64,000 nt of DNA from Thioalkalivibrio sp. ALJ21 (GTDB taxonomy: Bacteria > Pseudomonadota > Gammaproteobacteria > Ectothiorhodospirales > Ectothiorhodospiraceae). A program made the position numbers and the translations under genes. Below the pieces are notes generated by a model, which ran no database searches, was not told the DNA's origin, and saw nothing but the letters and a program-made list of their open reading frames with translations. The stretch is from positions 434,001 through 498,000 of the forward strand of contig NZ_KB905155.1 in NCBI RefSeq assembly GCF_000378605.1. The letters run 5' to 3'. Below, in pieces: positions 7,411 through 62,848 of this stretch. How positions within the stretch are numbered: the stretch's first letter is position 1; the number at the start of each line of letters is the position of its first letter.

Positions 7411-10400
7411 ATGAGCGCAAAAGATCCCTTCCCCGTTGCCAGTAGCACCGCTGACCTCTTCAGCGACTTCCCGGATCAGTCGCGAGAGGTGGATGTGGAG
7501 GTCCTTTGGCCACCGCCGGATCGTTTCCCGCTCAATGTCGACGGGCGGACGGTGCGCGAGCGGGTGATTGCGGACCTGGTGTCTGCGGATTCGCCATTGG
7601 TGGTGGCGGGCTACGGGGCACTGGAAGAGCTCATCCGTCTGGAGGCGGATCTGGGGGAGGTTCGGCCGCTTCGCGTTCTTTTTGGTAACGAGCCGAGTGC
7701 AGGGGAGGGTGGTCACCGCAGTCTTAAGGCGTCGAGTTTTCCCGAAGAGGTCGAGCAGTACTGGCTGGATCGAGGGATCTCCCTGCGCCTGTCAGCCCGG
7801 CTGATTCATTTTCGGGAGCGGCTCCGGGAGGGCGCCGTCGAGGCGCGGTACTGGCCCGACACGCAGCGGCCGCTGCACGCCAAGATCTATCTCGGGGCGA
7901 GGGCGGTAACGCTGGGCTCGAGCAACTTCAGCAAGAACGGGCTGGAGCGTCAGCACGAGGCGAATGCGCGGTTCACTGCAACGGGTGAACCGAGACGTTA
8001 CCGCGAGGCGGCGGCGCTGGCCGAGCAGTTCTGGTCGCTTGGGCATGACTACACCGATGCGCTTCTGGTGCTGCTCGAGCGTCTGCTGCATGTCGTCGGG
8101 TGGCGTGATGCGCTAGCCCGCGCCTGCGGGGAGCTGCTGGAGGGTGACTGGGCGAAGGGTTTTCTGCAGCAGGTCGACCGCGAGGCCTTCCGTGCGCTGT
8201 GGCCGGCCCAGCGTCAGGGGATCGCACAGGCGCTGTATCTGCTGGATCGTCAGGGTGCGGTGCTGATTGCGGATGCGACGGGTTCCGGCAAGACGCGCAT
8301 GGGTGCGCATCTCCTGCGGGCGCAGCAGGCGCGGATCCAGGGGGCGGGCGGGATGCCCCGCTCGGTCATGATTGCACCCTCGACGGTCGTGGAGGAGTGG
8401 GAGCGGGAGGCCTCCCGGGCCGACACCGCGCTGGATGTCTTTTCGGTTGGCCTGCTCAGTCACGGCAGCCGCAAGGCATGGCAGCTGGATGATGCCCTGA
8501 GGCGGGCGCGCCTGCTGGCCGTGGACGAGTGCCACAACTTCCACAATCGCCGCTCGCGCCGGACACGGCGGCTGTTTACCAACCATCTTGCCGATGACGT
8601 GCTGCTGTTTACCGCTACGCCGATCAACCGGAATGTCGATGACCTGGTCCGGATCGCGGATCTCCTCGGCGCCGACAACCTGCAGCCGAGCACGCTGAAA
8701 GCCCTGGAAAGGGTCAATCGTCCCGGTCGCTGGCACGGACTGGGCGACGATGAGGCCGCCCGGCTGCGGGACGAGATCCGTACATTCACCATTCGCCGTA
8801 CCAAGCGCATGTTCAATGCGCTGATTGATCGCGAGCCCGAGGCCTATCGGGATCACTCGGGACGGCCCTGCCGGTATCCGGAGCACCGCTCGTACAGCTA
8901 TTCCCTGGGGGAACCGGCTACCGACCGTGAACGCGCCAGTCGGATCCGGGGGCTTCTCGATCAGCTCTTTGGCGTGGTCCAGATTCCGGTGGTCCTGGAG
9001 CTGAGCGCCGTACAACGGCAGCAGGGGCTCACCGAGGATCAGTATCGTGACAACCTGCTGCTCGGGGCGCACAAGCTGGTCCGCTACCGGGTCATGGCGG
9101 CCCTGCGGTCTTCGCGTGCGGCATTGGTCGAGCACCTGTGCGGAACGACGGTGGCTCGGGCCGAGTTCGGGTTGGAGCATTACGCCAAGTCCGCCGATAC
9201 AGGAGATGTCCTGGGCAAGCTCAAGCAACCCGGGCGTGTGCCCGAGAACCGGCTGGGCGTGCCCTTGCCTGCTTGGCTTACCGATGCGGACGCCTGGGCA
9301 TCAGCCCACGCGCACGATCACCGGATCCTCTCGCAGGTCTTGGACGAGGTGCGCGCCATGAGTCCGGCGCGGGAGCACGCCAAGGTCGCCCATCTGGCCA
9401 GACTGGCGGCGCGCCACGAACGGGTGCTGGCTTTCGACAGCCGTCTGATTACCATCGCGGCCCTGAGCGCCCAGCTCGAAGAGCGGCTGCCGGGCGTCGA
9501 GATCTGGCAGGCCACGGGCAGCGACGAGCGAAGCCGCCAGGCGGTGCTCCGTGCATTTCGGCCGGGTGACGACGAGCAGGCCGGCGTGGCGCTGTGTTCG
9601 GATAGTCTGTCCGAGGGGGTGAACCTGCAGGCGGCCTCGGCGCTGGTCCATCTCGATATGCCCTCGGTGATACGCGTAGCCGAACAGCGAACGGGCCGCG
9701 TCGATCGTCTCGACAGCCCCCATGCCGAGGTCGAAGTCTGGTGGCCTCGGGATGCCGAGGAGTTCGCTCTCAGTGCCGATGCTCGCTTCCTGGACCGGGC
9801 CGATGCGGTGACGGAACTTCTCGGGACCAATCTCCCGTTGCCGGAAGACCTGCAGCAACGGTCACGGGATAGCGTTGACGCTGACACCCTGATCCGCGAA
9901 TACGAGCGTACCGCTCGCTCTATCGAGGAAGCCGAACCGCATGATGCCTTTGCCGCAGTGCGCGGACTGGTGGAAGGCGCGGGTGCGCTGGTCGAGCCCG
10001 ACATCTATGAGTATTACCGTCAGCGGTCCGTGCGAGTGCTCTCAAGAGTCAGTGTGGTGGCCAGCGACACCGTCTGGGCCTTCTTTTGTCTGGCCGGCAG
10101 CGCGGACCGCGCACCGCGCTGGTTTTTCTTCTCCGGCCCGGATTCCGAAGCCACGACCTCACTGGACAAGGTGGCCGCCGCGCTTCGCGAGCGACTGGCG
10201 CCCGATCCACCCAACGGTGAAATCGACGAGCCGGCCGCGAGACGGCTTGCGCACTTTTCCGAGCGCCTCCCGGAGGCCGAGCGGGCGCAGTTGCCGCTGC
10301 GCAAGCAACGGGCCCTGCAGGAGATGGCCGAGGTGCTCAAGGGCTTTTGCTTGGAGGCGGCTCGCCAGAGGGAGCAGACACGACTCGACGCCTACCTCGA

Positions 10401-10683
10401 TCTGCGCAATCTGCTGGCGCGAAAGCCGGAGACGCTGACGGGCGGCGAGCCGGATTGGGAGGCACTGGCCAATCGCTGGCTGGAGTTCATCCGTCCTTAC
10501 TGGTATCGCCGCCTGACCCAGCAGCGCAGGGGTTTTCTGCGCCTGCGGGACCTGCGCAAGGAGCTCATTGAGGCGGAGGCCGAACTGGGACCCGAGGTGC
10601 TGGAAGCGTTTGCCACCCTCCCGCTTCACAGCTCGGCGGAGGAGCGGGTAGTCGCGGCCATTCTCGGCATGCCCGTTCGTTGA
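7411..10683 (+). CDS. Phospholipase D-like nuclease / SNF2-type superfamily 2 helicase fusion
   Basis: About 1090 residues. The start at 7411 is preferred because GAGGTGG lies 3-9 bases upstream; an ATG at 7366 is in frame but lacks such a site. The N-terminal part has a PLD-type HKD motif, LHAKIYLGARAVTLGSSNFS (near residue 155). The helicase core follows: Walker A ATGSGKT (about 289), Walker B/box II VDECHNF (about 370), motif III FTATPIN (about 400), and the C-terminal helicase lobe with SDSLSEGVNLQ (about 730) and EQRTGRVDRLDS (about 760). The C-terminal 250 residues have no recognisable domain. PLD-helicase fusions occur in bacterial defence and DNA-processing islands; a defence role is inference from architecture and neighbours. 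It converges with the SprT-like gene 16 bp away. Confidence 0.85.
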   Translation: MSAKDPFPVASSTADLFSDFPDQSREVDVEVLWPPPDRFPLNVDGRTVRERVIADLVSADSPLVVAGYGALEELIRLEADLGEVRPLRVLFGNEPSAGEGGHRSLKASSFPEEVEQYWLDRGISLRLSARLIHFRERLREGAVEARYWPDTQRPLHAKIYLGARAVTLGSSNFSKNGLERQHEANARFTATGEPRRYREAAALAEQFWSLGHDYTDALLVLLERLLHVVGWRDALARACGELLEGDWAKGFLQQVDREAFRALWPAQRQGIAQALYLLDRQGAVLIADATGSGKTRMGAHLLRAQQARIQGAGGMPRSVMIAPSTVVEEWEREASRADTALDVFSVGLLSHGSRKAWQLDDALRRARLLAVDECHNFHNRRSRRTRRLFTNHLADDVLLFTATPINRNVDDLVRIADLLGADNLQPSTLKALERVNRPGRWHGLGDDEAARLRDEIRTFTIRRTKRMFNALIDREPEAYRDHSGRPCRYPEHRSYSYSLGEPATDRERASRIRGLLDQLFGVVQIPVVLELSAVQRQQGLTEDQYRDNLLLGAHKLVRYRVMAALRSSRAALVEHLCGTTVARAEFGLEHYAKSADTGDVLGKLKQPGRVPENRLGVPLPAWLTDADAWASAHAHDHRILSQVLDEVRAMSPAREHAKVAHLARLAARHERVLAFDSRLITIAALSAQLEERLPGVEIWQATGSDERSRQAVLRAFRPGDDEQAGVALCSDSLSEGVNLQAASALVHLDMPSVIRVAEQRTGRVDRLDSPHAEVEVWWPRDAEEFALSADARFLDRADAVTELLGTNLPLPEDLQQRSRDSVDADTLIREYERTARSIEEAEPHDAFAAVRGLVEGAGALVEPDIYEYYRQRSVRVLSRVSVVASDTVWAFFCLAGSADRAPRWFFFSGPDSEATTSLDKVAAALRERLAPDPPNGEIDEPAARRLAHFSERLPEAERAQLPLRKQRALQEMAEVLKGFCLEAARQREQTRLDAYLDLRNLLARKPETLTGGEPDWEALANRWLEFIRPYWYRRLTQQRRGFLRLRDLRKELIEAEAELGPEVLEAFATLPLHSSAEERVVAAILGMPVR

Positions 10684-10699
10684 TCCGGCGCCAGCCGGG

Positions 10700-11461
10700 T
10701 CAGCCTGCTTCGTCGGAGAGATGGCTCATCGGCTCCATGCACGATCCACAGATAACCTCGGTTTCCGGTCGCGCCCAGACCCGCGCCTCGCAGGTCGGGC
10801 AGTTCATGCGCACACGGGGATCCGGGCGCGGTGCGGGTGGCGTAAACACTGCCGGTTTTTCGGCATCGTCGGGCATCGCGATCGTCTCGGCCGGCGCGGG
10901 AGCGCTGGCCACGGCCAGACCCTGTTCGGCCAGGGCCTCCTGCACCTGGGCAACCGATTCGGGATCGGTGGGGGCATGCCGGTCGAACCAGGGCAGTTCG
11001 AACCCGGTGGCCAGCAGGTCCGCACAGGCTCGGGCGAAGGGCCCGTCCGGCTGGATGTAGTGCGTGACCCGGCGGCCGGTCTGTTTGCCATCCGGCAGGC
11101 CGGTATCGCTCGGCACCAGACCGATCGCTTCCATCTTGCCGGCCCACTCCCGATTGTGGTGGTTCGAACGGCTCGGGCGGCCGAAGCACTCCTGCCAGTG
11201 ATGCACCATTTCGTGTACCAGCGTGGACAGCGCGACCTCCAGCGGATTCAGGGTGAAGTACCCCGGATGAACACCCAACTCGTGGATGATCGTGCCGTCG
11301 CCGGAGATGAAGCGCTCGGCGTGGTGGTAGCCTCGCTGCCGACGGGAGCTGCGCAGCGTGATTAGGCAGGGCGGCAATTCGTTGTCGAACAGCCGTTCGT
11401 TGAAATGATCGAAGGCCCGCTGCAGGGCGGAGTACATCGACAGGGTGGGGGAGTCGGTCAT
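10700..11461 (-). CDS. SprT-like zinc metallopeptidase with C-terminal zinc ribbon
   Basis: 253 residues. A SprT-like domain spans about residues 10-120, with MYSALQRAFDHFNERLFDNE near the start and the HExxH motif in LVHEMVHHWQECFG, a further His in SNHHNREW, and the matrix-like tail GLVPSDTG. The C-terminus carries a two-CxxC zinc ribbon (CPTCEARVWARP and ICGSCMEP). SprT/Spartan proteins cleave DNA-crosslinked proteins. This shorter relative is often found on plasmids and islands, and its substrate is unknown. A proline- and alanine-rich linker joins the domains. The first 43 codons are duplicated, decayed, at 7087-7273. Confidence 0.87.
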   Translation of the reverse strand: MTDSPTLSMYSALQRAFDHFNERLFDNELPPCLITLRSSRRQRGYHHAERFISGDGTIIHELGVHPGYFTLNPLEVALSTLVHEMVHHWQECFGRPSRSNHHNREWAGKMEAIGLVPSDTGLPDGKQTGRRVTHYIQPDGPFARACADLLATGFELPWFDRHAPTDPESVAQVQEALAEQGLAVASAPAPAETIAMPDDAEKPAVFTPPAPRPDPRVRMNCPTCEARVWARPETEVICGSCMEPMSHLSDEAG

Positions 11462-11682
11462 GGTGCGTTCCCGGGATCGAGTCTTGAGTCCCGAGATTGT
11501 ATCGCCCCGTTTTTGTCACAAATCCGGTCACAAACTGGGCGAGCCGAGACCTGTCCCGTCCAGGATCTGGTTCGTCCATAGAATCGTTTCACCAAATGCT
11601 TGGGATAGAAATCGAAGGGTTATATATCAGACCTTTAATGATGTAGTATCTTCTCAATAATCATTTCAATTGGAAGGTTCGG

Positions 11683-13077
11683 ATGAGGAGCAAGCGAGAG
11701 GCAGCGCATCAGCAGCTCGGCTTGGCGCTTGCCAGACTCGCCCCGGTGCGTGCAGCCGATCTTGCCCGCGAGCTGGGGCTGTCGGTCCCCACCCTTCACC
11801 GACTGCTGCAGGAGACGCCCGAGCCCGTGCTTGCGGCCGGGCGGGCCCGGCGTACTCGCTACGCTCTGCGCAGAGCGCTGCGAGGCGACTTCGCGCCCAC
11901 TCCCATCCGTGTGATTGATGAAGCCGGCCAGCCGCACGAGCTCACGGAGCTCTCGCCCATCCAGCCGCAGGGCTGCCATGCCGACTTCGGTGGCTCGGAT
12001 TGGCCTTTGGAAGATGACGACGAGACCCCCGAAGGATGGTGGGCCGGTCTGCCATACCCTTTGTACGATATGCGCCCCCAGGGCTACCTCGGGCGCCAGC
12101 TGGCGCATCGCTTGCAAGACACGCTCGAGGTGTCACCCAATCCGGATACCTGGAGTGACGACGATATCCTCTGGGTTCTGAGTCGTGTGGGGTCCGATCT
12201 CCCCGGCAACCTGGTCGTTGGTGATGCCGCATTCAAGGGCTGGCAGAAGGCCCGCCTGGATCCCCCTCCGATTCTCGGGCTGGACGAGATCGAAGGGATG
12301 TATGTGAAAGCGGCGGAGGAGGCCATCTCGCTGGGCCTTGCGGGTTCCAGTGCTGCGGGTGAGTTCCCGAAGTTCACCGCCCTTCGGGACCTGCAGGGCA
12401 GTCGTAGTCCCCACGTCATCGTGAAGTTTTCGGGTGCGGACGAGTCCGCAACCGTGCAGCGCTGGTCCGATCTGCTGGTGGCGGAGCATCTGGCTCTGGA
12501 GGCGGTCGCGGCGCTCCCCGGCGTGCAGAGTCCGCCCAGCCGAATCCTCCAGCAACAGGGCCGCACGTTCCTGGAGGTCGAGCGCTTCGATCGTAACGGA
12601 CTGTTCGGCCGCAGCCCGGTGGTGACGCTGGAGACCGTGAACGCGGCCTTGCTTGGCCATGCGCCTTCGGCATGGGACACCCTTGCCAAGGGTCTCGCCG
12701 ACAAGCGTCTGCTGGCGCCGGAGGCGGTTGCAGCCATCCGTCACATCACCTGGTTCGGAAGACTGATTGCCAATAACGACATGCACCTGGGCAATCTCGC
12801 CTTTCGACCGGAGGGCGGCCGGCTTGTCCTGTGCCCGGTCTACGACATGCTCCCGATGGCCTACGCGCCGCTCCCGGGTGGTGAACTGCCGCGCGTGACG
12901 TTCGAGCCCGCCCTGCCATTACCCCGTGAACATGGTGCGTGGGTCACCACTTGTCACGCCGCGATCGGGTACTGGCAAACCGTGTCGGATGACACCCGCA
13001 TCCGTTCCACGTTTCGCAGGATTGCATCCGAAAACGCCCTCGAGCTGCAAAGGCGCATGGCACTCGTTGTGCCCTGA
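11683..13077 (+). CDS. yjjJ: YjjJ-type HipA-family serine/threonine kinase (toxin-like)
   Basis: 464 residues. An N-terminal winged helix (about 10-55: VRAADLARELGLSVPTLHRLLQ) is fused to a HipA-like kinase, as in E. coli YjjJ, so DNA-binding and kinase parts are in one chain and no separate hipB is needed. Kinase signatures are the glycine-rich SSAAGEFPKFTA, the lysine in VIVKFSG (about 250), the catalytic loop IANNDMHLGNLAF (about 365) and the metal-binding aspartate in CPVYDMLPM. YjjJ-type proteins are growth-inhibiting kinases in the HipA toxin family; the target here is unknown. It is followed by the Fic gene, another post-translational modifier. The upstream 60 bp are AT-rich, consistent with a promoter. 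Confidence 0.85.
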   Translation: MRSKREAAHQQLGLALARLAPVRAADLARELGLSVPTLHRLLQETPEPVLAAGRARRTRYALRRALRGDFAPTPIRVIDEAGQPHELTELSPIQPQGCHADFGGSDWPLEDDDETPEGWWAGLPYPLYDMRPQGYLGRQLAHRLQDTLEVSPNPDTWSDDDILWVLSRVGSDLPGNLVVGDAAFKGWQKARLDPPPILGLDEIEGMYVKAAEEAISLGLAGSSAAGEFPKFTALRDLQGSRSPHVIVKFSGADESATVQRWSDLLVAEHLALEAVAALPGVQSPPSRILQQQGRTFLEVERFDRNGLFGRSPVVTLETVNAALLGHAPSAWDTLAKGLADKRLLAPEAVAAIRHITWFGRLIANNDMHLGNLAFRPEGGRLVLCPVYDMLPMAYAPLPGGELPRVTFEPALPLPREHGAWVTTCHAAIGYWQTVSDDTRIRSTFRRIASENALELQRRMALVVP

Positions 13078-33935: not shown

Positions 33936-33944
33936 GGAAATAGT

Positions 33945-34080
33945 AAGATAACGGGGCCGGACCACGGTAACTGTCGGAAAAAACGGGAGAAATTCGGCAA
34001 ACGGACGCGTAATTCGGGCTTATTGGGGTGATTTTGGCGAGCAAATGGGACTTCTACCGAGGGAATCCACGGGATAGTCG
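33945..34080. repeat. Degenerate RAYT leader (type B) remnant
   Basis: The sequence begins GATAACGGGGCCGGACCACG and continues along the same path as the leader of the RAYT gene at 60481-60596 (cgtaattcgggcttat, gccattttggc-like, gggacttctaccgaggga), ending where a RAYT start would be. No transposase follows. It marks the right side of the higBA-KTSC cassette. Confidence 0.75.
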
Positions 34081-51457: not shown

Positions 51458-51523
51458 TTATCCACCAGCGAGCGAATGCGCAAAGAATGGCGGCAGAGTG
51501 CCGGATTAGGGTTTTTATCCACA
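51458..51523. promoter_or_regulatory. Two DnaA boxes in the nrdA promoter region
   Basis: TTATCCACC at 51458-51466 (one mismatch) and TTATCCACA at 51515-51523 (perfect DnaA box), both in the same orientation, 57 bp apart. In E. coli, DnaA binds the nrdAB promoter and ties dNTP supply to replication; the same arrangement is inferred here. Confidence 0.7.
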
Positions 51524-51563
51524 GCTTGCCCACGGGTTGTGCGAGGGGTTATTCGCCTGGGAG

Positions 51564-51579
51564 ACACAAGATATTGTGT
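51564..51579. promoter_or_regulatory. NrdR box upstream of nrdA
   Basis: ACACAAGATATTGTGT is a 16-bp near-perfect palindrome matching the NrdR-box consensus (acaCwAtATaTwGtgt), 72 bp before the nrdA start. NrdR represses ribonucleotide reductase genes when dATP is plentiful. A second, weaker box about 31 bp away was not clear. Confidence 0.85.
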
Positions 51580-51651
51580 CTATGCACTTCCCGATCCCCG
51601 ATCTATAGTACTTCACGTCCATTACCCATAGTTACGCGTGAGGCCGCCACC

Positions 51652-54546
51652 ATGTACAGCGACACCCAGACCGCCGAAGCCCAAGAGGGCATCCAGTACC
51701 CGCCGCAAGCCGAGCCGTCGGCCGAGGTCCTGGCGACCAGCCCGGGCCAGCACCAGGTGATCCGCCGCAACGGCAAGGTCACCGGCTTCGACGCCTCGAA
51801 GATCGAGGTTGCGGTCACCAAGGCCTTCCTGGCGGTAGAGGGCGGCAGTGCCGCGGCCAGCCGTCGCATCCACGACATCTCCAAGGAAGTCGCCGGGCAG
51901 GTGGTCGACAGCCTGTTCCGCCGCGCCGGCACCCAGGGCATGACGGTGCACATCGAGGACATCCAGGACCAGGTGGAACTGGCCCTGATGCGTGGTGGCC
52001 ACCACAAGGTCGCGCGGGCCTATGTGATCTACCGCGAACAGCAGGCGCAAAAGCGCGCCGCCGAGGCCGCGGAGCAGGGCGTGGACGAGCAGGAGATTGC
52101 TCCGGCCGTGAACGTGACCCGCGCCGACGGCACCCAGGCCCCGCTGGACGAGGCACGCCTGCAGGCGGTGGTGGACGAGGCCTGCGCCGGCATCGAGCAG
52201 GTCGACGGCCAGAAGATCCTGACCGAGGCGCGCCGCAACCTGTTCGACGGTGTGGCCGAGAAGGACGTCTCCACCGCGCTGGTGATGGCCGCCCGTGTGA
52301 TGATCGAGCAGGAGCCGAACTACTCGCAGGTCACCGCGCGGCTGCTGATGGACGCGCTGCGCCGCGAGGCCCTGAGCTTCGTGCACGGCCGCCCGGAAGA
52401 GGCCACCCAGGCCCAGCTGGCCGAGCGCTACGCCGAGTACTTCGGCGCCTACATCAAGCGCGCCGCTGACCTGGAGCTGGTCGACAGCGAGCTGACCCGC
52501 TACAACCTCGACAAGCTGGGCGCGGCGATCAAGCCCGAGCGCGACCTGCAGTTTACCTACCTCGGCCTGCAGACCCTGTACGACCGCTACTTCATCCATT
52601 CTGACGGCACCCGCTTCGAGCTGCCGCAGGCGTTCTTCATGCGCGTGGCGATGGGCCTGGCGATCAACGAGATCGACCGCGAGGCGCGTGCGATCGAGTT
52701 CTACAACCTGCTGAGCTCGTTCGACTTCATGAGCTCCACGCCGACGCTGTTCAATTCCGGCACCCTGCGCCCGCAGCTCTCCAGCTGCTACCTGACCAGC
52801 GTCCCGGACGACCTGGACGGCATCTACAGCGCCATCCGCGACAACGCGCTGCTGTCCAAGTTTGCCGGCGGGCTCGGCAACGACTGGACCCGCGTGCGCG
52901 GCATGGGCGCCCACATCAAGGGCACCAACGGCAAGTCGCAGGGCGTGGTCCCGTTCCTGAAGGTCGCCAACGACACCGCCGTGGCCGTGAACCAGGGCGG
53001 CAAGCGCAAGGGTGCGGTGTGCGCCTACCTCGAGACCTGGCACATCGATGTCGAGGAGTTCATCGAGCTGCGCAAGAACACCGGCGACGACCGCCGCCGC
53101 ACCCACGACATGAACAGCGCCAACTGGATCCCGGACCTGTTCATGAAGCGCGTGGCCGAGGACGGCGACTGGACCCTGTTCTCCCCGAACGAGACCCCGG
53201 ACCTGCACGACCTGGTCGGCGCCGAGTTCGAGAAGCGCTACTGCGAATACGAAGAGAAGGCCGCGCGCGGCGAACTGCGTGTGCACAAGACCATGAAGGC
53301 CGTGGACCTGTGGCGGAAGATGCTCGGCATGCTGTTCGAGACCGGCCATCCGTGGATGACCTTCAAGGACCCGTGCAACCTGCGCAGCCCGCAGCAACAC
53401 ACCGGCGTGGTCCACAGCTCGAACCTGTGCACCGAGATCACCCTGAACACCTCGGACGACGAGATCGCGGTGTGCAACCTGGGCTCGATCAACCTGGCCG
53501 CGCATGTGAACGAGGCCGGCGAGCTGGACCAGGACAAGCTCGAGCAGACCGTGAACACCGCCATGCGCATGCTCGACAACGTGATCGACTACAACTACTA
53601 CTCCGTGCCGCAGGCGCGGCGCTCCAACCTGCGCCACCGCCCGGTGGGGCTGGGGGTCATGGGCTTCCAGGACGCGCTGTACAAGCTGCGCGTGCCGTAT
53701 GCCTCCGAGGCGGCGGTGGAGTTTGCCGACACCTCCATGGAGGCGGTGTCCTACTACGCCATCAAGGCCTCGACCGATCTGGCCGAGGAACGCGGGCGCT
53801 ACGAGAGCTTCCCCGGCAGCCTGTGGAGCCAGGGCATCCTGCCGATCGACTCGATCGACAAGCTGGCCGAGACCCGCGGCGACTACCTGCAGATGGACAC
53901 CACCCAGCGCCTGGAGTGGGACAAGCTGCGCAAGCGGGTGAAGAAGGTCGGCATGCGCAACTCCAACACCATGGCGATCGCGCCGACCGCGACCATCTCC
54001 AACATCTGCGGGGTCAGCCAGTCGATCGAGCCGACCTACCAGAACCTGTTCGTCAAATCGAACCTGTCCGGCGAGTTCACCGTGATCAACCCGTACCTGG
54101 TGCGCGACCTGAAAGACCGCGAGCTGTGGGACGAGGTGATGGTCAACGACCTCAAGTACTACGACGGCTCCGTGCAGCCGCTGGACCGCGTGCCGGAGGA
54201 CATCAAGGCCCTGTACGCCACCGCGTTCGAGCTGGACACCCGCTGGCTGGTCGAGGCCGCCTCGCGCCGGCAGAAGTGGATCGACCAGGCGCAGAGCCTG
54301 AACCTCTACATGGCCGAGCCCTCCGGGCCCAAGCTGGACGCCCTGTACAAGCTGGCCTGGGTGCGCGGGCTGAAGACGACCTACTACCTGCGCTCCATGG
54401 GCGCGACCCACGTGGAAAAGAGCACCGTGGCCGACTCCTCGCGCGCCAACAAGCTGAACGCCGTCTCCGGCGGCCAGCAGGCGGCCGAGCCCGAGGCCCC
54501 GAAGGCCTGCTCCATCCTCGACCCGGACTGCGAGGCCTGCCAGTAA
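51652..54546 (+). CDS. nrdA: Class Ia ribonucleoside-diphosphate reductase, alpha subunit
   Basis: 964 residues from ATG 51652 (GTGAGG eight bases upstream); the open frame further upstream crosses the promoter sites and is rejected. Two ATP-cone regions are visible: [20 protein letters not shown] (about 40-120) and INVTRADG-like [20 protein letters not shown] (about 155-240). Catalytic cysteines: [11 protein letters not shown] (about 379), NLCTEITLN with its Glu (about 593), CNLGSINLA (about 608). [21 protein letters not shown] forms the substrate loop. The C-terminus DPDCEACQ carries the swinging CxxC. The longer size reflects the second ATP cone. nrdB follows 109 bp downstream. Confidence 0.96.
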
Positions 54547-54655: not shown

Positions 54656-55894
54656 ATGCTTTCCTGGGACGATCCGATCGCAGCCATCAAAGGCGAAGGC
54701 CAGAAAGAACCCGCCGTCCGCCCCGGCATGGGCTTTCAGGAGAACGAAGCCCTGATGAGCACCGCCGGCGCCGCACCCAGCGTGCCGCCGGAGCCGGAAA
54801 ACGCCGGCCAGCCGCTGGCCGAGCCGAACGAAGACGCCCTGACCGGCACCGGTCTGGAAGACCTGGAGATGGGTGCCGAGCGCATCCGCGTCGATGACAA
54901 GAAGATCATCAACTGCCACGCGGACCTCAACCAGCTCGTGCCCTTCAAGTACAAGTGGGCCTGGCAGAAGTACCTGGACGGCTGCGCCAACCACTGGATG
55001 CCGCAGGAAATCAACATGAACGCGGACATCGCCCTGTGGAAGGACCCGAATGGTCTGACCGAGGACGAGCGCACCATCGTCAAGCGCAACCTCGGCTTCT
55101 TCTCCACCGCCGACTCGCTGGTGGCGAACAACCTGGTGCTGGCCGTGTACCGCCACATCACCAACCCCGAGTGCCGCCAGTACCTGCTGCGTCAGGCTTT
55201 CGAGGAGGCGCTGCACACCCACGCCTACCAGTACTGCGTCGAGTCTCTGGGCCTGGACGAGGGCGAGATCTTCAACATGTACCGCGAGGTGCCCTCCGTG
55301 GCCACCAAGGCGGAGTGGGCGCTGCCGTTCACCAAGCACCTGGCGGACCCGAACTTCCGCACCGGTACGCCGGAGGCGGACCAGAAGCTGCTGCGCGAGC
55401 TGATCGCCTTCTACGTCGTGTTCGAGGGCATCTTCTTCTACGTCGGCTTCGTGCAGATCCTCTCCATGGGCCGGCGCAACAAGATGACCGGTGTGGCCGA
55501 ACAGTTCCAGTACATCCTGCGCGACGAGTCCATGCACATGAACTTCGGCATCGACGTGATCAACCAGATCAAGCTCGAAAACCCGCACCTGTGGACCGAA
55601 GACTTCAAGAACGAGATGCGCACCCTGATCTCGGATGCCGTCGAGCTGGAGGCGCAGTACGCCCGCGACACCATGCCCCGCGGCGTGCTCGGCATGAATG
55701 CCCAGATGTTCGAGGAATACCTGCACTTCATCGCCAACCGCCGCTGCGCCCAGATCGGCCTGGCCGAGCTGTACCCGGGGGCCGACAACCCGTTCCCGTG
55801 GATGAGCGAGGTGCTCGATCTGAAGAAGGAGAAAAACTTCTTTGAGACGCGGGTTACGGAGTATCAGACGGGTGGGGCGTTGAGCTGGGATTGA
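54656..55894 (+). CDS. nrdB: Class Ia ribonucleoside-diphosphate reductase, beta subunit
   Basis: 412 residues. It holds the diferric-tyrosyl radical: metal ligands Asp in [10 protein letters not shown] (about 125), Glu and His in [12 protein letters not shown] (about 182-187) with the radical Tyr four residues after the His, Glu in VVFEGIFFY, and Glu and His in [10 protein letters not shown]. The N-terminus MLSWDDP and the C-terminal GGALSWD are typical; the tail binds NrdA. The first 75 residues are a Pro/Glu/Ala-rich extension. GAGGGG lies upstream of ATG. A terminator follows. Confidence 0.96.
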
Positions 55895-58263: not shown

Positions 58264-58290
58264 CGAAGGAACAAATGAGCGCGGCGGCAA

Positions 58291-58465
58291 GAAGGGGACA
58301 CCCATGATTTCTTGCAGCATGGACTAAGTGCCAAGGGAAGGTTGGAAGAAGAAGATGGCACCCATGGTTTATTGACGGCCCGAGGTGGGCTGTCTACAGG
58401 GTTCAGGGGGCGGGGCTCGGAGGGTGCGAGGATGACACTAGCCAGGATGGAGCTCGCCTCGGGAA
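58291..58465. repeat. Decayed RAYT type-A leader and start
   Basis: GGGGACACCCATGATTTCTT (58294-58313) and a second degenerate copy (58351-58378) are followed by CGAGGTGGGCTGTCTA and a decayed RAYT start (atgacactagccaggatgg, 58432-58450), parallel to the intact leader before 59240. No transposase frame survives. Confidence 0.75.
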
Positions 58466-58475
58466 ACGCGAGTTG

Positions 58476-58504
58476 GCCCCGATGAATGTTCATCGGGGCT
58501 TTCT
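58476..58504 (+). terminator. Strong hairpin with short U-tract
   Basis: GCCCCGATGA (58476-58485) and TCATCGGGGC (58490-58499) form a perfect 10-bp stem with loop ATGT, followed by TTTCT on the plus strand. It lies between convergent genes and could serve both; the plus-strand gene ends 213 bp before it, and the minus-strand gene ends 4 bp beyond it. Confidence 0.75.
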
Positions 58505-58507
58505 GGC

Positions 58508-59044
58508 CTAAAACTGATCGGATAGTTCAGCTTTATCCCGATTAAGTTGCCATTCCACGTATTTGGGGGTGCGATAGGCTATAGACGGCATGAGGGTCCC
58601 GGTAGGCTGGACAGGACTCCGCTGTGCGCGGATGTGGATACCACTTTCCGACATGTACTCGAGATGGTTGTCGTCGATGCGTCTTGGTTCTCCGTAGAGA
58701 TTGTTCAAGGCGCGCTTGATAGGGATCCAACTTTCTTGAGTGTAAGCGGCGGTTGCAGAAACCAAGAGACCGTCACTGCTGAAGGAAGTCGCGATCATTG
58801 TGAGGTTCTCGATGCCTGCCAGGCCGCCAAGGGGGCTCAATGCAACGTATCCGGGATGATCGGAATATGCCCGATCCGGATTCACGCCCACTTCAGTAAG
58901 ATTCATGTGAGGGCTCAGGTGCTCGTGTACATCCGAAAAAGTCATCTTACCGACTTCTAGGTTCAGCGGGCCCGTCGCGTGAGTCGTTAATGGAAAAAAC
59001 AGGGTGAATGCTATCGCTAATCCCTTAAGGGTAGTATGTCTCAT
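58508..59044 (-). CDS. Exported protein of unknown function
   Basis: 178 residues with a clear signal peptide (MRHTTLKGLAIAFTLFFPLT then THATG). The mature part contains LNLEVGKMTFSDVHEHLSPH, GGLAGIENLTMIATSF and RALNNLYGEPRRIDDNHLEY, suggesting a small periplasmic domain like those that gauge residue pairs in BamE-like or lipoprotein folds, but no family is recognised. It ends right at a strong hairpin. RAYT repeats flank it on both sides. Confidence 0.7.
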   Translation of the reverse strand: MRHTTLKGLAIAFTLFFPLTTHATGPLNLEVGKMTFSDVHEHLSPHMNLTEVGVNPDRAYSDHPGYVALSPLGGLAGIENLTMIATSFSSDGLLVSATAAYTQESWIPIKRALNNLYGEPRRIDDNHLEYMSESGIHIRAQRSPVQPTGTLMPSIAYRTPKYVEWQLNRDKAELSDQF

Positions 59045-59114
59045 CGCCTTTTGGCTCCTTGGTTTTAGGTGGGTTTTAGCTGTGAAAGTCGAGTATGTTA
59101 GCCGAAACAGAAGA

Positions 59115-59239
59115 AGAGGACACCGACGATTGCTTGACGGTCTGATAGGTCAAAGAAGAGGACACCCATGATTTCTTGACGGTCTGATGCGGGCTGTCTA
59201 GGTTTGTGGGGGAGTGCATGGACTAGGGAGGGTCCGGAG
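59115..59239. repeat. RAYT type-A leader
   Basis: It contains two copies of the GGACACCCATGATTTCTTG motif (one degenerate at 59117, one at about 59159), the segment GGTCTGATGCGGGCTGTCTA, and GGGAGGGTCCGGAG directly before the truncated transposase start. The same leader recurs at 58349, 59706 and 60421. Confidence 0.85.
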
Positions 59240-59530
59240 ATGACGCGAGCCAGGAAGGAGCTCGTCTCGGTCGAGACGACGCCGTATTACCACTGTATTT
59301 GTCGCTGTGTTCGCCGCGCGTTCCTGTGCGGCGAGGATTCCTATTCGGGCAAGAACTACGAGCACCGGCGCGGCTGGGTGCTGGAGCGCCTGCGCGTGCT
59401 GCAGGGCGTGTTCGCGGTGGACGTGTGCGCGTACGCGGTGATGTCGAACCATTATCACCTGGTGGTGCGGCTGGATTCGGATCGGGCGGCGGGATGGAGC
59501 GAAGACGAGGTGATGGAGCGCTGGAAATAG
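59240..59530 (+). pseudogene. REP-associated tyrosine transposase type A, 3'-truncated
   Basis: 96 residues starting MTRARKELVSVETTPYYHCI, then CRCVRRAFLCGEDSYSG and AYAVMSNHYHLVVRLDSD with the HUH motif (HYH). Full RAYT proteins of this group are over 200-300 residues and carry a catalytic Tyr further on. The frame here ends with GERWK-like DEVMERWK and a TAG that belongs to the boundary of an inserted type-B element (AAATAG-CGGGGTCGG), so it has lost its catalytic Tyr. Confidence 0.85.
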
Positions 59531-59702
59531 CGGGGTCGGACCACGGTAAGCCTCGGAAAGATCCGAGGAAAATGGTCTATAAAGGGTGTAATTCGAGCTT
59601 ATAGGGGCCATTTTGGCCAGCAAAAAGGGCCTTCTAGGGAGGGAAGCCATAACACGGACGAATCGCTATCACTTGCCGGGCCATGTCTGACATATCACAC
59701 AC
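59531..59702 (+). pseudogene. RAYT type-B leader and decayed start
   Basis: It begins CGGGGTCGGACCACGGTAA and parallels 60481-60653. The start codon has become ATA, the next codons match (RTNRYHLPGHV against PRANRHHLPGHV), and the Trp codon is now TGA. The copy breaks off near 59702, where a type-A leader begins. Confidence 0.85.
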
Positions 59703-59705
59703 CGA

Positions 59706-59835
59706 AAGAAGGGACACCCATTATTTCTTGACGGTCTTAGGCGGGCTGTCTAGGTTTCAGGGGGAGTGCATGGACCAGGGAGGGTCCGGAGATGACGCGA
59801 GCCAGGAGACAAAGAAGAGGACACCCATGATATCG
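59706..59835. repeat. Second RAYT type-A leader with first codons
   Basis: GGGACACCCATTATTTCTTG, then GCGGGCTGTCTAGGTTTCAG, AGGGAGGGTCCGGAG and ATGACGCGAGCCAGGAG, the first codons of RAYT type A, after which the sequence diverts into another GAGGACACCCATGATATC copy (59817-59834). It is a leader without transposase. Confidence 0.8.
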
Positions 59836-59908
59836 GGTGTGTCTCGTACTAGAGAGACAAATAGATAAGAATTAGGACGTTGGTGCACTGGTATCGCGGG
59901 GATTGGTA

Positions 59909-60400
59909 ATGGACTTCTGGCAAACGATTCTCGCCACTTTGATCGGCGGCTCAATCAGTCTTGTGGCTGTGACGTTGACAAATAAACATCAGTGGCGCGT
60001 CGAGAGTTCAAGGAAGAGGCTTGAGAAAATCGAGCAAGCCCACGTGCTTACTATTAAGATAGGCGATCTCTACCGAAGGATGTGTGGGGAGCATCTCGCG
60101 AGTTTGGTCTTGCGTGAGAGCAAGCCGGTTGATGCGCTTGGTGAAAAAGTGCCGTTTGAAGAACTCAAGATGCTCGTAGACTTCTATGCGCCAGAGTTGT
60201 CATGGCGATATGAAGAAGTGCTGCAGGCGACTCAGAAGGATTACGGGAAGATCCATGTTCAGATGATTTCTATTAACAAGTTGAGTGATGAAGAACGTAG
60301 TCAGTTGAAGTCATCAATTATGGATCGTCAAAGTGATATAGAAGAGAAGGTTAAGCAATTGCAAGACGGGCTGGTGGATATGGGCCGGAGGTATGTTTAG
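59909..60400 (+). CDS. Membrane-anchored coiled-coil protein, unknown
   Basis: 163 residues from ATG 59909 (the open frame extends two codons earlier to a TTG). One N-terminal membrane segment (MDFWQTILATLIGGSISLVA) is followed by a basic stretch (KHQWRVESSRKRLEKIEQAH) and predicted helices with heptad-like spacing to the end (IMDRQSDIEEKVKQLQDGLV). It is AT-richer than the core genes and lies between two RAYT leaders, so it is probably carried cargo. The family is unknown. Confidence 0.6.
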   Translation: MDFWQTILATLIGGSISLVAVTLTNKHQWRVESSRKRLEKIEQAHVLTIKIGDLYRRMCGEHLASLVLRESKPVDALGEKVPFEELKMLVDFYAPELSWRYEEVLQATQKDYGKIHVQMISINKLSDEERSQLKSSIMDRQSDIEEKVKQLQDGLVDMGRRYV

Positions 60401-60420
60401 AAGGGGCGCGCCTGCTGCGA

Positions 60421-60596
60421 AAGAAGGGGACACCCATGATTTCTTGACGGTCTGAGGCGGGCTGTCTAGGTTAAAATAACGGGGTCGGACCACGGTAACC
60501 CTCGGAAAGATCGATGGAAAACGGTTTAGAAAGGGTGTAATTCGAGCTTATCGCGGCCATTTGGGCCAGGAAATGGGCCTTCCAGGGAGGGAAGCC
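60421..60596. repeat. Type-A leader interrupted by type-B leader
   Basis: GGGGACACCCATGATTTCTT and GCGGGCTGTCTAGGTT (60426-60473) are a type-A leader cut off at CTAGGTT. At 60474-60480 the boundary AAAATAA joins the type-B leader CGGGGTCGGACCACGGTAA (60481-60499), which runs to GGGAGGGAAGCC before the RAYT start at 60597. Confidence 0.85.
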
Positions 60597-61334
60597 ATGC
60601 CACGGGCGAATCGCCATCACTTGCCGGGCCATGTCTGGCATATCACCCACCGGTGCCATAAGCAGGAGTTTCTGCTGAAGTTCGCGCGCGACCGCCGGTT
60701 GTGGCGCTACTGGTTATATCAAGCGCGGCGACGCTACGGGCTGTGTGCGTTGAATTACATCGTCACGTCCAACCACGTGCACCTGCTGGTGCGTGATGAG
60801 GGCCGTGGCGAGATCCCGCGGGCCATGCAGTTGATCGCGGGGCGGGTCGGCCAGGCCTACAACCGGCGCAAGGGCCGGAAGGGCGCGTTCTGGGAGGACC
60901 GCTACCACGCCACGGCGGTAGAGACCGGCACCCATCTGGCGCGTTGTCTGGTGTACATCGACCTGAATATGGTGCGGGCGGGGGTGGTGCAGCATCCGCG
61001 CGAATGGCAAGCCAGCGGTTATCGAGAGATCCAGGACCCTCCGGATCGGTACCGCGTGATTGACCAGCAAGCGCTACAGGAGTCACTGGAGATCGGTTCA
61101 TTGCCAGAGCTGAGGCAATGTCATCGAATGTGGGTAGACGATGCGCTAGCGTCGGATCGTGCCAGTCGGGACGATCGTTGGACGACGTGCGTGGCCGTGG
61201 GTAGTCGGCCGTATGTGGACGAAGTTCAGAAGGCATTGGGGATACGCTCGCCGGGGCGCGAGGTAGAAGAGTTGGGGGATACGGCGTGCGTTCGTGAGGA
61301 TGCTGCGGGTTATGCCATGGACGGGCGGTTTTGA
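60597..61334 (+). CDS. REP-associated tyrosine transposase (RAYT, Y1 HUH family), type B
   Basis: 245 residues: MPRANRHHLPGHVWHITHRC, HKQEFLLKFARDRRLWRYW, then the HUH motif in LNYIVTSNHVHLLV (about 64-70), KGAFWEDRYHATAVE and the catalytic Tyr in RCLVYIDLNMVRAGV (about 121). The Y1_Tnp domain is complete and intact. RAYTs recognise and cleave REP hairpins and are thought to spread them. The window has two REP families (47.7 and 48.6 kb) that could be substrates. GGGAGGG lies about six bases before ATG. The C-terminal 90 residues are less conserved. Confidence 0.92.
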   Translation: MPRANRHHLPGHVWHITHRCHKQEFLLKFARDRRLWRYWLYQARRRYGLCALNYIVTSNHVHLLVRDEGRGEIPRAMQLIAGRVGQAYNRRKGRKGAFWEDRYHATAVETGTHLARCLVYIDLNMVRAGVVQHPREWQASGYREIQDPPDRYRVIDQQALQESLEIGSLPELRQCHRMWVDDALASDRASRDDRWTTCVAVGSRPYVDEVQKALGIRSPGREVEELGDTACVREDAAGYAMDGRF

Positions 61335-61421
61335 CCATGAAAATGGCGGATAAGGCATTCATGGACGGGCTCTGGACTGAAAATGCGATTTGAAACAGTC
61401 AGGTAGCGAGGTCCGACCCCG

Positions 61422-61583
61422 ATCTTTCGCCTGGAGTGGTACCCACGCCTCGCGCACGCAACGCCCGCGCAGCTGCGTATCTGGGAGATCTCCGCCGGAG
61501 GCTACGGAATTCACTGGCCAAAGCTCGACGAAGACCTGAGCACTGAAGGGCTGCTGCGAGGCGCACCTGCGCCTGCTCGGTAG
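61422..61583 (+). pseudogene. DUF2442 antitoxin-like gene, 3' fragment
   Basis: 54 codons without a start: IFRLEWYPRLAHATPAQLRI, then ISAGGYGIHWPKLDEDLSTE and GLLRGAPAPAR before TAG. This is the conserved end of DUF2442 proteins (WYPRL..A, GIHWP-LDEDIS-EGLL). The 5' part is missing and the RAYT region ends just upstream, so the gene was truncated by that insertion or rearrangement. It is 7 bp before the CopG-like gene. Confidence 0.75.
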
Positions 61584-61590
61584 AATACTT

Positions 61591-61866
61591 ATGAGCAACA
61601 CCAAGACGAGTCCTGAGTTCCAGGACGAGGCGGAAGAACGAGCGTTCTGGGAAAGCCATGATTCCAGCGACGATGTCGATTGGGGCCGAGCCAAGGCCGT
61701 CGAGCTCCCGAACCTCAAGCCCTCCACCAAGACGATCTCGCTGCGCTTACCGGAGTCGCTTCTTGACCACATCATGATCGAGGCCAACAAGCGCGATATG
61801 CCGTATCAGTCCCTGATCAAGGCGTGGCTCGCGGACGATGTAAAGCAGGCTCGCAAGAAGGGCTAG
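61591..61866 (+). CDS. BrnA/CopG-type ribbon-helix-helix antitoxin-like protein
   Basis: 91 residues: SPEFQDEAEERAFWESHDSS, VDWGRAKAVELPNLKPSTKT, then ISLRLPESLLDHIMIEANKR and MPYQSLIKAWLADDV. The second half is a ribbon-helix-helix DNA-binding domain of the BrnA/CopG type. It normally pairs with a toxin such as BrnT; the gene upstream here is only a DUF2442 fragment, so the toxin is absent. It may be an orphan regulator. Confidence 0.82.
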   Translation: MSNTKTSPEFQDEAEERAFWESHDSSDDVDWGRAKAVELPNLKPSTKTISLRLPESLLDHIMIEANKRDMPYQSLIKAWLADDVKQARKKG

Positions 61867-61959
61867 CGGTTGGGTTGAGGGGCTGAGTTCTGTACGTGGA
61901 TGGGTAAGCCTGATCGGACTCGGGCCAATAGTAGTGATAAGCGACGCAAGGAGGCGCGC

Positions 61960-62610
61960 ATGGTTTTACTGATTTTGTATATCCCCGCAGTGCTGGTCGC
62001 ACTGGGAATCCTGTTTATGGCCAGGCGGGCCGCACTGGGGCCTCGGGTGCGGTACGCCCTCGCAACGCTGATTCTGCCCGTTGTCGTGCTCTTTGCAGGC
62101 TGGGCTATCGCCGGTGGCGACCCGTCGATGGGGCTGGCGCTGACGGTCTTGTTTCTGGGGTTTGTGGTCGTTCCCGCCGGTTTTGGTCGGATGTTCCTGC
62201 GGCGATACCCGTCCGTATCGCCAACGCAGGAGATGAATGTGAACCCGAAGCGGGACCCTTCGGTGACCGACGTGGCGGGGCAGGAGTCTGATGGCGCTGG
62301 GCACGAGTCCGATTCGGGGCATGGACACGATGTGGCGCCGAGGCAGGATGACCGGGCGCGGGCGATGCGGCTTGCCTTCATGGTGCATACGCCCGGAGCG
62401 ATGTTGCTGGGACTCGGCCTGGCAGAACGACTCGGAAACTCGGATCCGATCCTGCCGTGGTTCGAAAACGGCTGGGTGGTCGATGGCATGTTGCTTTTGG
62501 GGGTGGTGCTGATCGCGATCTCCACGCGGATAATTCTCGCCACGGTGTTCGGCCCGTCCTCCAAGGCGCGAGATTCGGGGAGCCTGGGCCGCCGGAACCC
62601 ACGCCTCTGA
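61960..62610 (+). CDS. Multi-pass membrane protein, unknown
   Basis: 216 residues with about five hydrophobic segments (VLLILYIPAVLVALGILFMA, VRYALATLILPVVVLFAGWA, SMGLALTVLFLGFVVVPAGF, then LAFMVHTPGAMLLGLGLA and VDGMLLLGVVLIAIS). A soluble acidic and His-rich loop lies between segments three and four (GHESDSGHGHDVAPRQDD). AAGGAGG lies six bases before ATG 61960. The family is not recognised; GC content is like the core. Confidence 0.7.
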   Translation: MVLLILYIPAVLVALGILFMARRAALGPRVRYALATLILPVVVLFAGWAIAGGDPSMGLALTVLFLGFVVVPAGFGRMFLRRYPSVSPTQEMNVNPKRDPSVTDVAGQESDGAGHESDSGHGHDVAPRQDDRARAMRLAFMVHTPGAMLLGLGLAERLGNSDPILPWFENGWVVDGMLLLGVVLIAISTRIILATVFGPSSKARDSGSLGRRNPRL

Positions 62611-62650
62611 CTCGCTGCGAAAGCAGAAAGACGAGTCATGGGGGGCGAGA

Positions 62651-62677
62651 AAGCGAAAAGAGGACACCCATGGTTTC
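62651..62677. repeat. RAYT type-A leader fragment
   Basis: AAAGAGGACACCCATGGTTT, matching the start of the type-A leaders upstream, joined directly to a truncated acetyltransferase gene. Confidence 0.7.
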
Positions 62678-62848
62678 TTGGAGCTCGTGCTGGCCGACCC
62701 GGACGTGCCGTATGTGATGGGCTGTGTGCGAGTGGGCAACCGGGCCTCCCAGCGCGCGTTTGCCAAGGCGGGTTTTCGCGTGGACCGGGGGTTCGATGAC
62801 GTGCCGTACGGGCCACACCTGCTGATGCTGCACTGCTGCGCGGGATAG
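62678..62848 (+). pseudogene. GNAT acetyltransferase, 3' fragment
   Basis: 57 codons: LELVLADPDVPYVMGCVRVG, then NRASQRAFAKAGFRVDRGFD and GPHLLMLHCC before TAG. N-x-x-S-x-R-x-F-x-K-x-G-F is the conserved C-terminal half of GNAT N-acetyltransferases, as in the AacA4-like group. The N-terminal two thirds are missing, replaced by the RAYT leader fragment. Confidence 0.75.

Follow-up and report, generated by a model that had tools for sequence, protein, structure and literature searches.

INTRODUCTION

RAYT-like genes that lie between terminal inverted repeats (TIRs) were named TIRtrons or TIRYTs by Di Nocera et al. in 2013 (PMC3733652). The elements described here, type A and type B, appear from their sequences to be TIRYTs, that is, HUH/Y1 single-strand transposase elements on a branch of the RAYT family. 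They occur in a 64,000-nucleotide (nt) stretch of DNA (the window), which the relatives of its type-B protein place in Thioalkalivibrio, and form an array downstream of nrdB in which copies run one way and are cut short by the left end (LE) of the next. We regard as evenly balanced the proposal that the LE of these TIR elements, besides taking part in the movement of complete units, also recombines alone and imprecisely to create such one-way shingled arrays.

Published systems are compared here from the parts of the reports that were available. TIRtrons and TIRYTs (PMC3733652) resemble the present elements in having a RAYT-like gene between TIRs and LE copies that also occur alone. Their TIR motif is GGGGWSAS; a GGGG-led motif that may be its counterpart here reads GGGGACAC or GAGGACAC in the type-A variants and GGGGTCGG, one base off the consensus, in the type-B core, and the type-B gene, like that of a TIRtron, lies between TIRs at similar distances. 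However, one-way arrays, a bias toward 3ʹ truncation and LE-edge deletions of the kind seen here are not mentioned in the available part of that report. Among the TnpA-Y1 subclasses of Quentin et al. (2018; PMC6006769), subclass 2.1 includes most TIRYTs and has a C-terminal extension, and subclass 2.3 is frequent in Chromatiales, exists in more than five copies, lacks a REP-like structure and carries two core insertions and a long tail, features that type A resembles. Compared by description only, types A and B lie near these two subclasses.

RAYT/REPtron systems such as Escherichia coli TnpA-REP (PMC2817692, PMC8266576) are similar in their fold, in cleavage beside a short end sequence and in their inverted flanking repeats. 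RAYTs associated with repetitive extragenic palindromes (REPs) have been reported to show no signs of insertion sequence (IS)-like mobility (PMC2817692, in the part available), whereas near-identical copies occur at different places here and the LEs have no strong hairpin. Elements of the IS200/IS605 group (IS608, ISDra2) share the HUH/Y1 core. Insertion of the IS608 type is precise at a tetranucleotide (PMC8266576), in contrast to the 37 junctions described below, where no fixed target tetranucleotide was apparent by eye.

No paper on shingled or one-way RAYT or TIRYT arrays, or on LE-edge deletions, was found in the open-access literature. One-ended events of IS91 and Helitron elements, IS26 arrays and integron cassette arrays offer examples of one constant combined with one variable end, and of same-direction units with cargo. 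This is a likeness in working and not one of membership, and the enzymes are unrelated or only distantly related. A sequence-only reading of the window had suggested that a leader-plus-gene moving as a defined unit is not well described for RAYTs; the two-ended, TIR-bounded unit is already known from the 2013 report.

RESULTS AND DISCUSSION

Left ends of two element families recur in the window

The recurrent leaders recognized by the sequence-only reading are real and correspond to the LEs of the two families. A search with the type-B pattern CGGGGTCGGACCACGGTAA, allowing up to 3 mismatches, located LEs at 33952, 59531 and 60480, all on the forward strand, whereas 0 are expected from shuffled sequences; a fourth match, with 3 mismatches on the reverse strand at 61403-61421, marks where the intact copy has its right end, in inverted form. 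Two of the positions given earlier (33951 and 60481) were off by one, and the observation that CGGGG is preceded by A/G-ATA[A/G] agrees with the bases found (GATAA, AATAG and AATAA). Eight type-A LEs, rather than about six, were identified, again all on the forward strand, with starts at 58289, 58349, 59111, 59153, 59705, 59812, 60421 and 62655. Over 26 nt the last seven carry 4, 3, 0, 5, 3, 1 and 3 mismatches, respectively, and a shorter type-A pattern matches 7 times in the window versus 0 expected.

All copies lie on the forward strand and, read from left to right, repeatedly run into one another. A solo type-A LE (58289..58314) and a degenerate one (58349..58396) are followed by a second degenerate LE (59111..59146) that is cut by the next type-A LE. 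The latter opens a fragment (59153..59525) consisting of the LE, the leader and the first ~92 transposase codons (gene from about 59252), which runs into a type-B copy at 59526. This type-B fragment (LE plus ~180 nt, 59526..59704) is cut in turn by a type-A copy of which ~105 nt (59705..59811) remain before yet another type-A LE (59812..59837), which is solo and is followed by unrelated DNA with a small open reading frame (ORF; 59903-60400). A type-A LE with 53 nt including leader (60421..60473) then runs into the full type-B element at 60474, and a final type-A LE (62655..62680) is fused to the 3ʹ part of another ORF that has no Pfam match. Outside the array, a lone type-B left-end fragment of ~126 nt (74% identity) is located at 33944..34069.

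As had been noticed from the sequence, two type-B copies (59526 and 60474) sit inside type-A sequence, and only one transposase is intact: a single transposase ORF in the window, the type-B one at 60597-61334, combines a complete Y1 domain with an end that is not cut. Nesting the other way round also occurs, with a type-A copy cutting into a type-B copy at 59705, and some type-A copies are cut by others of their own family. That reading took in neither the inverted right end of type B nor the bias toward 3ʹ truncation, and the one-way arrays found at a common hotspot were likewise outside it.

Type-B units have two ends

The intact type-B copy (60474..61428) extends from a left terminal repeat (60474..60498, forward strand) to an inverted version of the same end (61403..61428, reverse strand), and full-length relatives in three genomes (G007, G008 and G009) match it from 60474/60475 to 61426/61428. 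Because of this inverted right end and the same ends in relatives, type B can be taken as a two-ended unit of about 955 bp. In other phyla, where 44 loci of 80 fetched from named genomes were examined, a GGGTC[GA]G[AG]CC-like inverted pair ranks first among the inverted repeats that surround the homologous gene in 34 of the 44 loci, mostly 100-135 nt upstream and 84-110 nt downstream of the gene; at the remaining 10 loci the best inverted repeat is something else. Five within-genome pairs, 84 to 99% identical, start 0-20 nt before the left core and end at the right core or 0-20 nt past it, as exemplified by Pelotalea (99.1% over 953 bp) and Desulfosarcina (99.1% over 967 columns). These comparisons of sequence support movement of complete type-B units as two-ended elements, and the earlier proposal that leader plus gene is a defined mobile unit gains support from the inverted right end, the shared ends and the near-identical pairs. 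A search of the genus with the right-end pattern found few exact right ends; one mismatch also catches inverted left ends, so the search gives no clean left-to-right ratio.

Arrays beside nrdB run one way

The array starts downstream of nrdB (54656..55894, forward strand), which encodes the small chain of ribonucleotide reductase (Pfam Ribonuc_red_sm), and this flank was followed through sister-locus alignments and an nrdB-flank search. Similarity to the window locus stops shortly past nrdB in ten fetched sister regions. In total, 18 nrdB places were found in 17 of 30 genomes, and 16 were examined; those in G006 and G011, where the contig ends, were omitted, and G001 gave 5.2 kb only. Arrays of LEs are present at 12 of the 16 flanks, whereas no type-A or type-B LE was found at the second nrdB of the window's genome or in G001 (within its 5.2 kb), G002 and G003. 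That second nrdB copy (G000:C4:111239-111827) is 92% identical over the query and has no LE in the next 20 kb.

Every one of the 132 LEs in the 12 arrays is directed away from nrdB. The sole reverse match at these arrays, in G009, lies at the right end of a full type-B copy. With a looser pattern there are 8 reverse type-B matches, of which seven read as right ends and the eighth is a lone match in G015, 29 kb away. Across the first 40 regions fetched, which were picked partly by LE matches in a way that may affect the number of LEs and not their direction, 229 LEs point one way within their own region versus 1 that points the opposite way, again the G009 right end. Other, unrelated hotspots are also one-directional.

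Elements of the IS200/IS605 group favour one replication strand, and therefore we tested strand bias as a cause of LE orientation. Samples of GC skew from 20 places on the G005 chromosome show a switch of sign between 1.22 and 1.34 Mb. At the nrdB hotspot (1.53 Mb) it is the G-rich strand that carries the LEs, whereas at 1.167 and 1.75 Mb they are on the opposite strand. Among the 31 regions that have at least two LEs, the strand with the LEs is the G-rich one in 17. Replication-strand bias was thus rejected as a general cause, since LE hotspots reside on opposite replication strands. The single orientation would better fit new copies entering old ones in one set orientation, or arrays that grow as local stretches are duplicated and deleted.

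One pair of loci probably carries a trace of exchange. Those of G005 and G010, which are otherwise more diverged, share 99.7% identity over 3.05 kb after nrdB and a further 466 nt at 99.1% that stop precisely where a type-A LE stops, beyond which the loci differ. A recent transfer is the likely origin of this tract.

Truncated copies keep their left part

Element fragments were collected by protein searches of the 30 genomes, which favour neither end, and were counted by hand at ≥65% identity. Type-B fragments comprise 14 that are N-terminal only versus 1 that is C-terminal only, and type-A fragments give the same numbers (14 versus 1). The pooled bias is 28:2 toward a kept 5ʹ side (two-sided binomial 8.7e-7 if independent). 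Those in G009:C5 and G014:C15, at the syntenic loci L195 and L213, probably trace back to a single event, and therefore not all of the fragments counted are independent. Matches below 65% identity, two type-B matches at contig ends (G019:C148 and G018:C185), internal type-A fragments (G011 and G006:C7:13761) and a split type-A copy (G014) were dropped before the count.

Most often it is the next LE that cuts a truncated copy, and there are 37 junctions at which such a copy stands directly before another LE. Type A is followed by type A at 17 of them and by type B at 7, and type B by type A at 10 and by type B at 3, so that 17 are A/B mixed and 20 are of the same family. Plain insertion would leave the right half of the cut copy past the newcomer, but no right half was found within 8 kb downstream at these junctions, the one flagged match being another LE-bearing copy. 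In the 33 junctions that were scored, the gap between cut and LE is 0-13 nt before the type-A motif (24 cases) or 2-8 nt before the type-B motif (9 cases). The fixed 5ʹ end envisaged in the sequence-only reading therefore holds for the LE sequence, which is constant, and not for the join point, which varies over these distances upstream of the motif. At locus L189 the extra junction bases are a repeat of the sequence that flanks the neighbouring copy on its left, and similar tandem copies are present in L216 and L186.

Two candidate explanations for these ends were set aside. Neither a shared target tetranucleotide nor a C|T join was apparent when the 37 junctions were read by eye, and the filler is variable. 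The LE was also considered as a REP; both the LE and the right end are without GTAG, and neither showed folding above shuffled sequences.

Left ends at the breakpoints of sister-locus differences

Sister loci were compared at 21 insertion or deletion differences of 40-6000 nt, located outside A/B elements and with duplicates removed. An LE lies at the breakpoint in 7 of these 21, versus a mean of 0.82 and a maximum of 4 in 2000 shifts. Four differences were read base by base. At L212, which lacks 1020 nt present in L192, a gene runs into an LE with 3 bases added at the join, and at L204 a stretch of 1124 nt, from 14 nt before an LE to the inside of a gene, is missing. At L216 and L232, cargo or gene sequence is fused just past the far side of an LE. 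Of 46 ends of shared cargo blocks, 13 lie ≤30 nt before an LE (1.9 expected), and of 59 starts, 11 lie ≤60 nt after the start of an LE (2.8 expected); these counts replace one that included A/B elements (51/104 starts, 24/170 ends) and was inflated by the elements' own ends.

Shingled copies in another phylum

In Desulfosarcina alkanivorans, pieces of an element E2 stand in front of two copies of a full element, E1, that are 100% identical over 951 bp. Starting from the LE, three of the E2 pieces match one another at 100%, yet they stop at 638, 424 and 286. A complete E1 comes next in two cases and another E2 in the third. The other six E2 matches in this record are 73-76% identical. A similar shingling thus appears in another phylum, where the complete identity of the E2 pieces indicates that it is recent.

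The transposases of types A and B

The type-B transposase (60597..61334, forward strand) is a protein of 245 amino acids with an HVH motif and a conserved Y120. Its Pfam Y1_Tnp domain scores 32.2 bits (cut-off 23), and residues H60, H62 and Y120 are invariant in an alignment of 24 sequences. The type-A protein is longer (341 amino acids in the copy used) and reaches only 21.6 bits for the same domain; residues H71-Y72-H73 and Y183 are invariant across 9 close sequences. The curated cut-off of 80 for the RAYT model NF047646 of NCBIfam was not reached by type B (67.8) or type A (45), which score as relatives of the family below it.

A structure model of the type-B protein was obtained with good confidence (pLDDT 84); among solved structures it is closest to E. 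coli TnpA-REP (4ER8; Z 14.2, root-mean-square deviation 2.9, 157 aligned), followed by IS608 at Z 7.4; the HUH/Y1 core of IS200/IS605 enzymes gives Z about 6 to 7. The modelled fold therefore appears nearer to TnpA-REP than to IS200 transposases. The type-A model was too poor to use (pLDDT 42). Searches of the PDB with single type-B or type-A sequences gave no match, and a type-B profile gave weak matches alone (ISDra2, E 0.05; 4ER8, E 0.21).

A proposed mechanism and its alternatives

According to our proposal, the LE alone would act as a recombination site in addition to its part in two-ended movement. The DNA would break beside the LE, either a few bases upstream of the motif or, in type A, just past its ~26 nt, and the broken end would be joined to other DNA without the need for a matching end. 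Joining to an upstream point would delete the intervening DNA, whereas joining between sister copies to a downstream point would give a tandem repeat. Repeated rounds beside nrdB would pile up shingled copies that all face one way, each retaining its left part up to the point where the next LE cuts in. The observations behind the proposal are the terminal repeats of type B, the single orientation, the 3ʹ truncation bias, the imprecise joins, the missing right halves and the indel breakpoints at LE edges.

By analogy with TnpA-REP, the transposase may make the cuts next to the LE and pass the end to another 3ʹ end. Such joining is plausible because, in a published assay, TnpA-REP joins cleaved REP DNA to added oligonucleotides. 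Cleavage takes place 5ʹ or 3ʹ of the REP, the 5ʹ end is then joined to oligonucleotides that finish in a 3ʹ C, and the sequence upstream of this C matters less (PMC8266576, in the part available). A broader version of the idea holds that TIRYT LEs are autonomous one-ended recombination sites and that hotspot arrays are directional, integron-like systems, driven by a RAYT-type transposase, in which cargo is captured, deleted and exchanged; we consider this possible, if doubtful.

Several results weigh against a role for the LE alone. No common motif or dinucleotide was seen at the junctions, which were read by eye with no statistical motif search run, and in this they are unlike the CT or CA sites at which the characterized TnpA-REP enzymes cut (PMC8266576). 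Five stretches that were folded to look for a REP hairpin in the LE gave no result better than shuffled sequences. A right repeat was found for type B only, and a type-A right end was not found. No LE lies at the breakpoint in 14 of the 21 indels, the majority of cargo boundaries are away from LEs, and the distinction between deletion and insertion was drawn from which version keeps an open gene. One product is of the opposite kind, a full type-B copy followed by the right part of another (L199). Finally, some type-B 3ʹ ends recur: five fragments from four genomes end ≤10 nt apart (reference 215-225) before different DNA, and six pieces share both an end at reference 149 and the DNA that follows (L185, L235). 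The latter are probably a short non-autonomous element, and the recurrent ends as a group hint at specific secondary ends or short non-autonomous units. The pieces ending at 215-225 are those of L183, L189, L191, L210 and L213, and by eye their site CGACCGCCG resembles the right-end core CGACCCCG.

Three other explanations were weighed. The first, which we judge somewhat unlikely, is that two-ended elements inserted into each other and one half was then lost by homologous recombination between direct repeats, with arrays exchanged between strains at LE repeats. A copy lodged in its own relative would thereby be reduced to a left part followed by a full copy. The 20 same-family junctions suit this sequence of events, whereas the 17 A/B junctions provide no shared DNA homology for a collapse. 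Collapse also predicts left and right remnants in equal numbers; L199 is the mirror product expected, but the overall count is 28:2. The G005/G010 tract ends at a type-A LE as an imported tract ending in a repeat would, whereas at the L212 and L204 breakpoints the flank of an LE meets gene sequence and no second LE is present. Homologous recombination explains part of the data, such as the G005/G010 tract, and not the 17 A/B junctions.

An unlikely second alternative reverses the order of arrival, such that the truncated pieces are the newcomers. Each would be a left end with a variable stretch, cut at a secondary right end and inserted directly before an existing LE, sometimes with short direct repeats. 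Direct repeats do surround some pieces (GCATGCCG at L216; 14 nt at L186). Against this order, no difference is apparent at L189 between the repeated piece and the one beside it, which resembles the outcome of a local duplication. The recurrence of type-B ends at reference 149 and 215-225, together with the many type-A pieces that stop right after the 26-nt LE, would follow naturally, but the other 3ʹ ends are scattered from 24 to 1297, and LE fusions to gene interiors in which the other part of the gene is lost are left unexplained. Plain decay of old insertion sequences whose ends have no role is highly improbable: most copies are broken and some LEs are degenerate, but decay does not account for the 28:2 bias, the 132 one-way LEs, the LE edges at 7 of 21 indels or the identical Desulfosarcina pieces.

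Cargo, flanking genes and other repeat families

Upstream of nrdB, the hotspot flank includes nrdA (51466..54546, forward strand), which encodes the large chain of ribonucleotide reductase (Pfam Ribonuc_red_lgC, lgN and ATP-cone). The full type-B element is followed by the tail of a DUF2442 gene (61428..61583, forward strand; Pfam DUF2442) and by a gene for a CopG/BrnA-type antitoxin (61591-61866), which is likewise cargo of the array. In sister genomes the type-A gene is followed by an ORF that we take to be DUF4160-like and then by DUF2442. The other small ORFs of the window array (56217, 56899, 58508-, 59903 and 61900) have no Pfam match.

Other RAYT-like genes and repeats were encountered in these genomes. 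A third RAYT-like family, with the LE GGGGACAGATTTATTTTC, forms four same-direction tandem units at L205 (G005:C1:1645000-1664900, reverse strand 7698-12788), and neighbouring units are up to 97% identical with a spacing of about 1463 nt. In the same genome as the window, a different RAYT-like gene lies among GTAGGAGGCCAGCCCTCTGGCC-type repeats at L001 (G000:C1 near 1011737), apparently as a classic REP system. Repeats of GGGGTCAGACCTTGCCTTTTG at the nrdB hotspots of G000, G012 and G014 form inverted pairs about 62-64 nt apart and are REPIN-like.

CONCLUDING REMARKS

The TIR-bounded RAYT relatives described here bear signs of recent mobility, and the trace they leave at one of their ends is directional. 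The hotspot after nrdB provides a natural, comparable set of such arrays across many species. If the left end alone recombines, these enzymes would reshape chromosomes by deletion, duplication and fusion, and if the one-ended reading is true, RAYT relatives would be a source of genome remodelling in at least two phyla.

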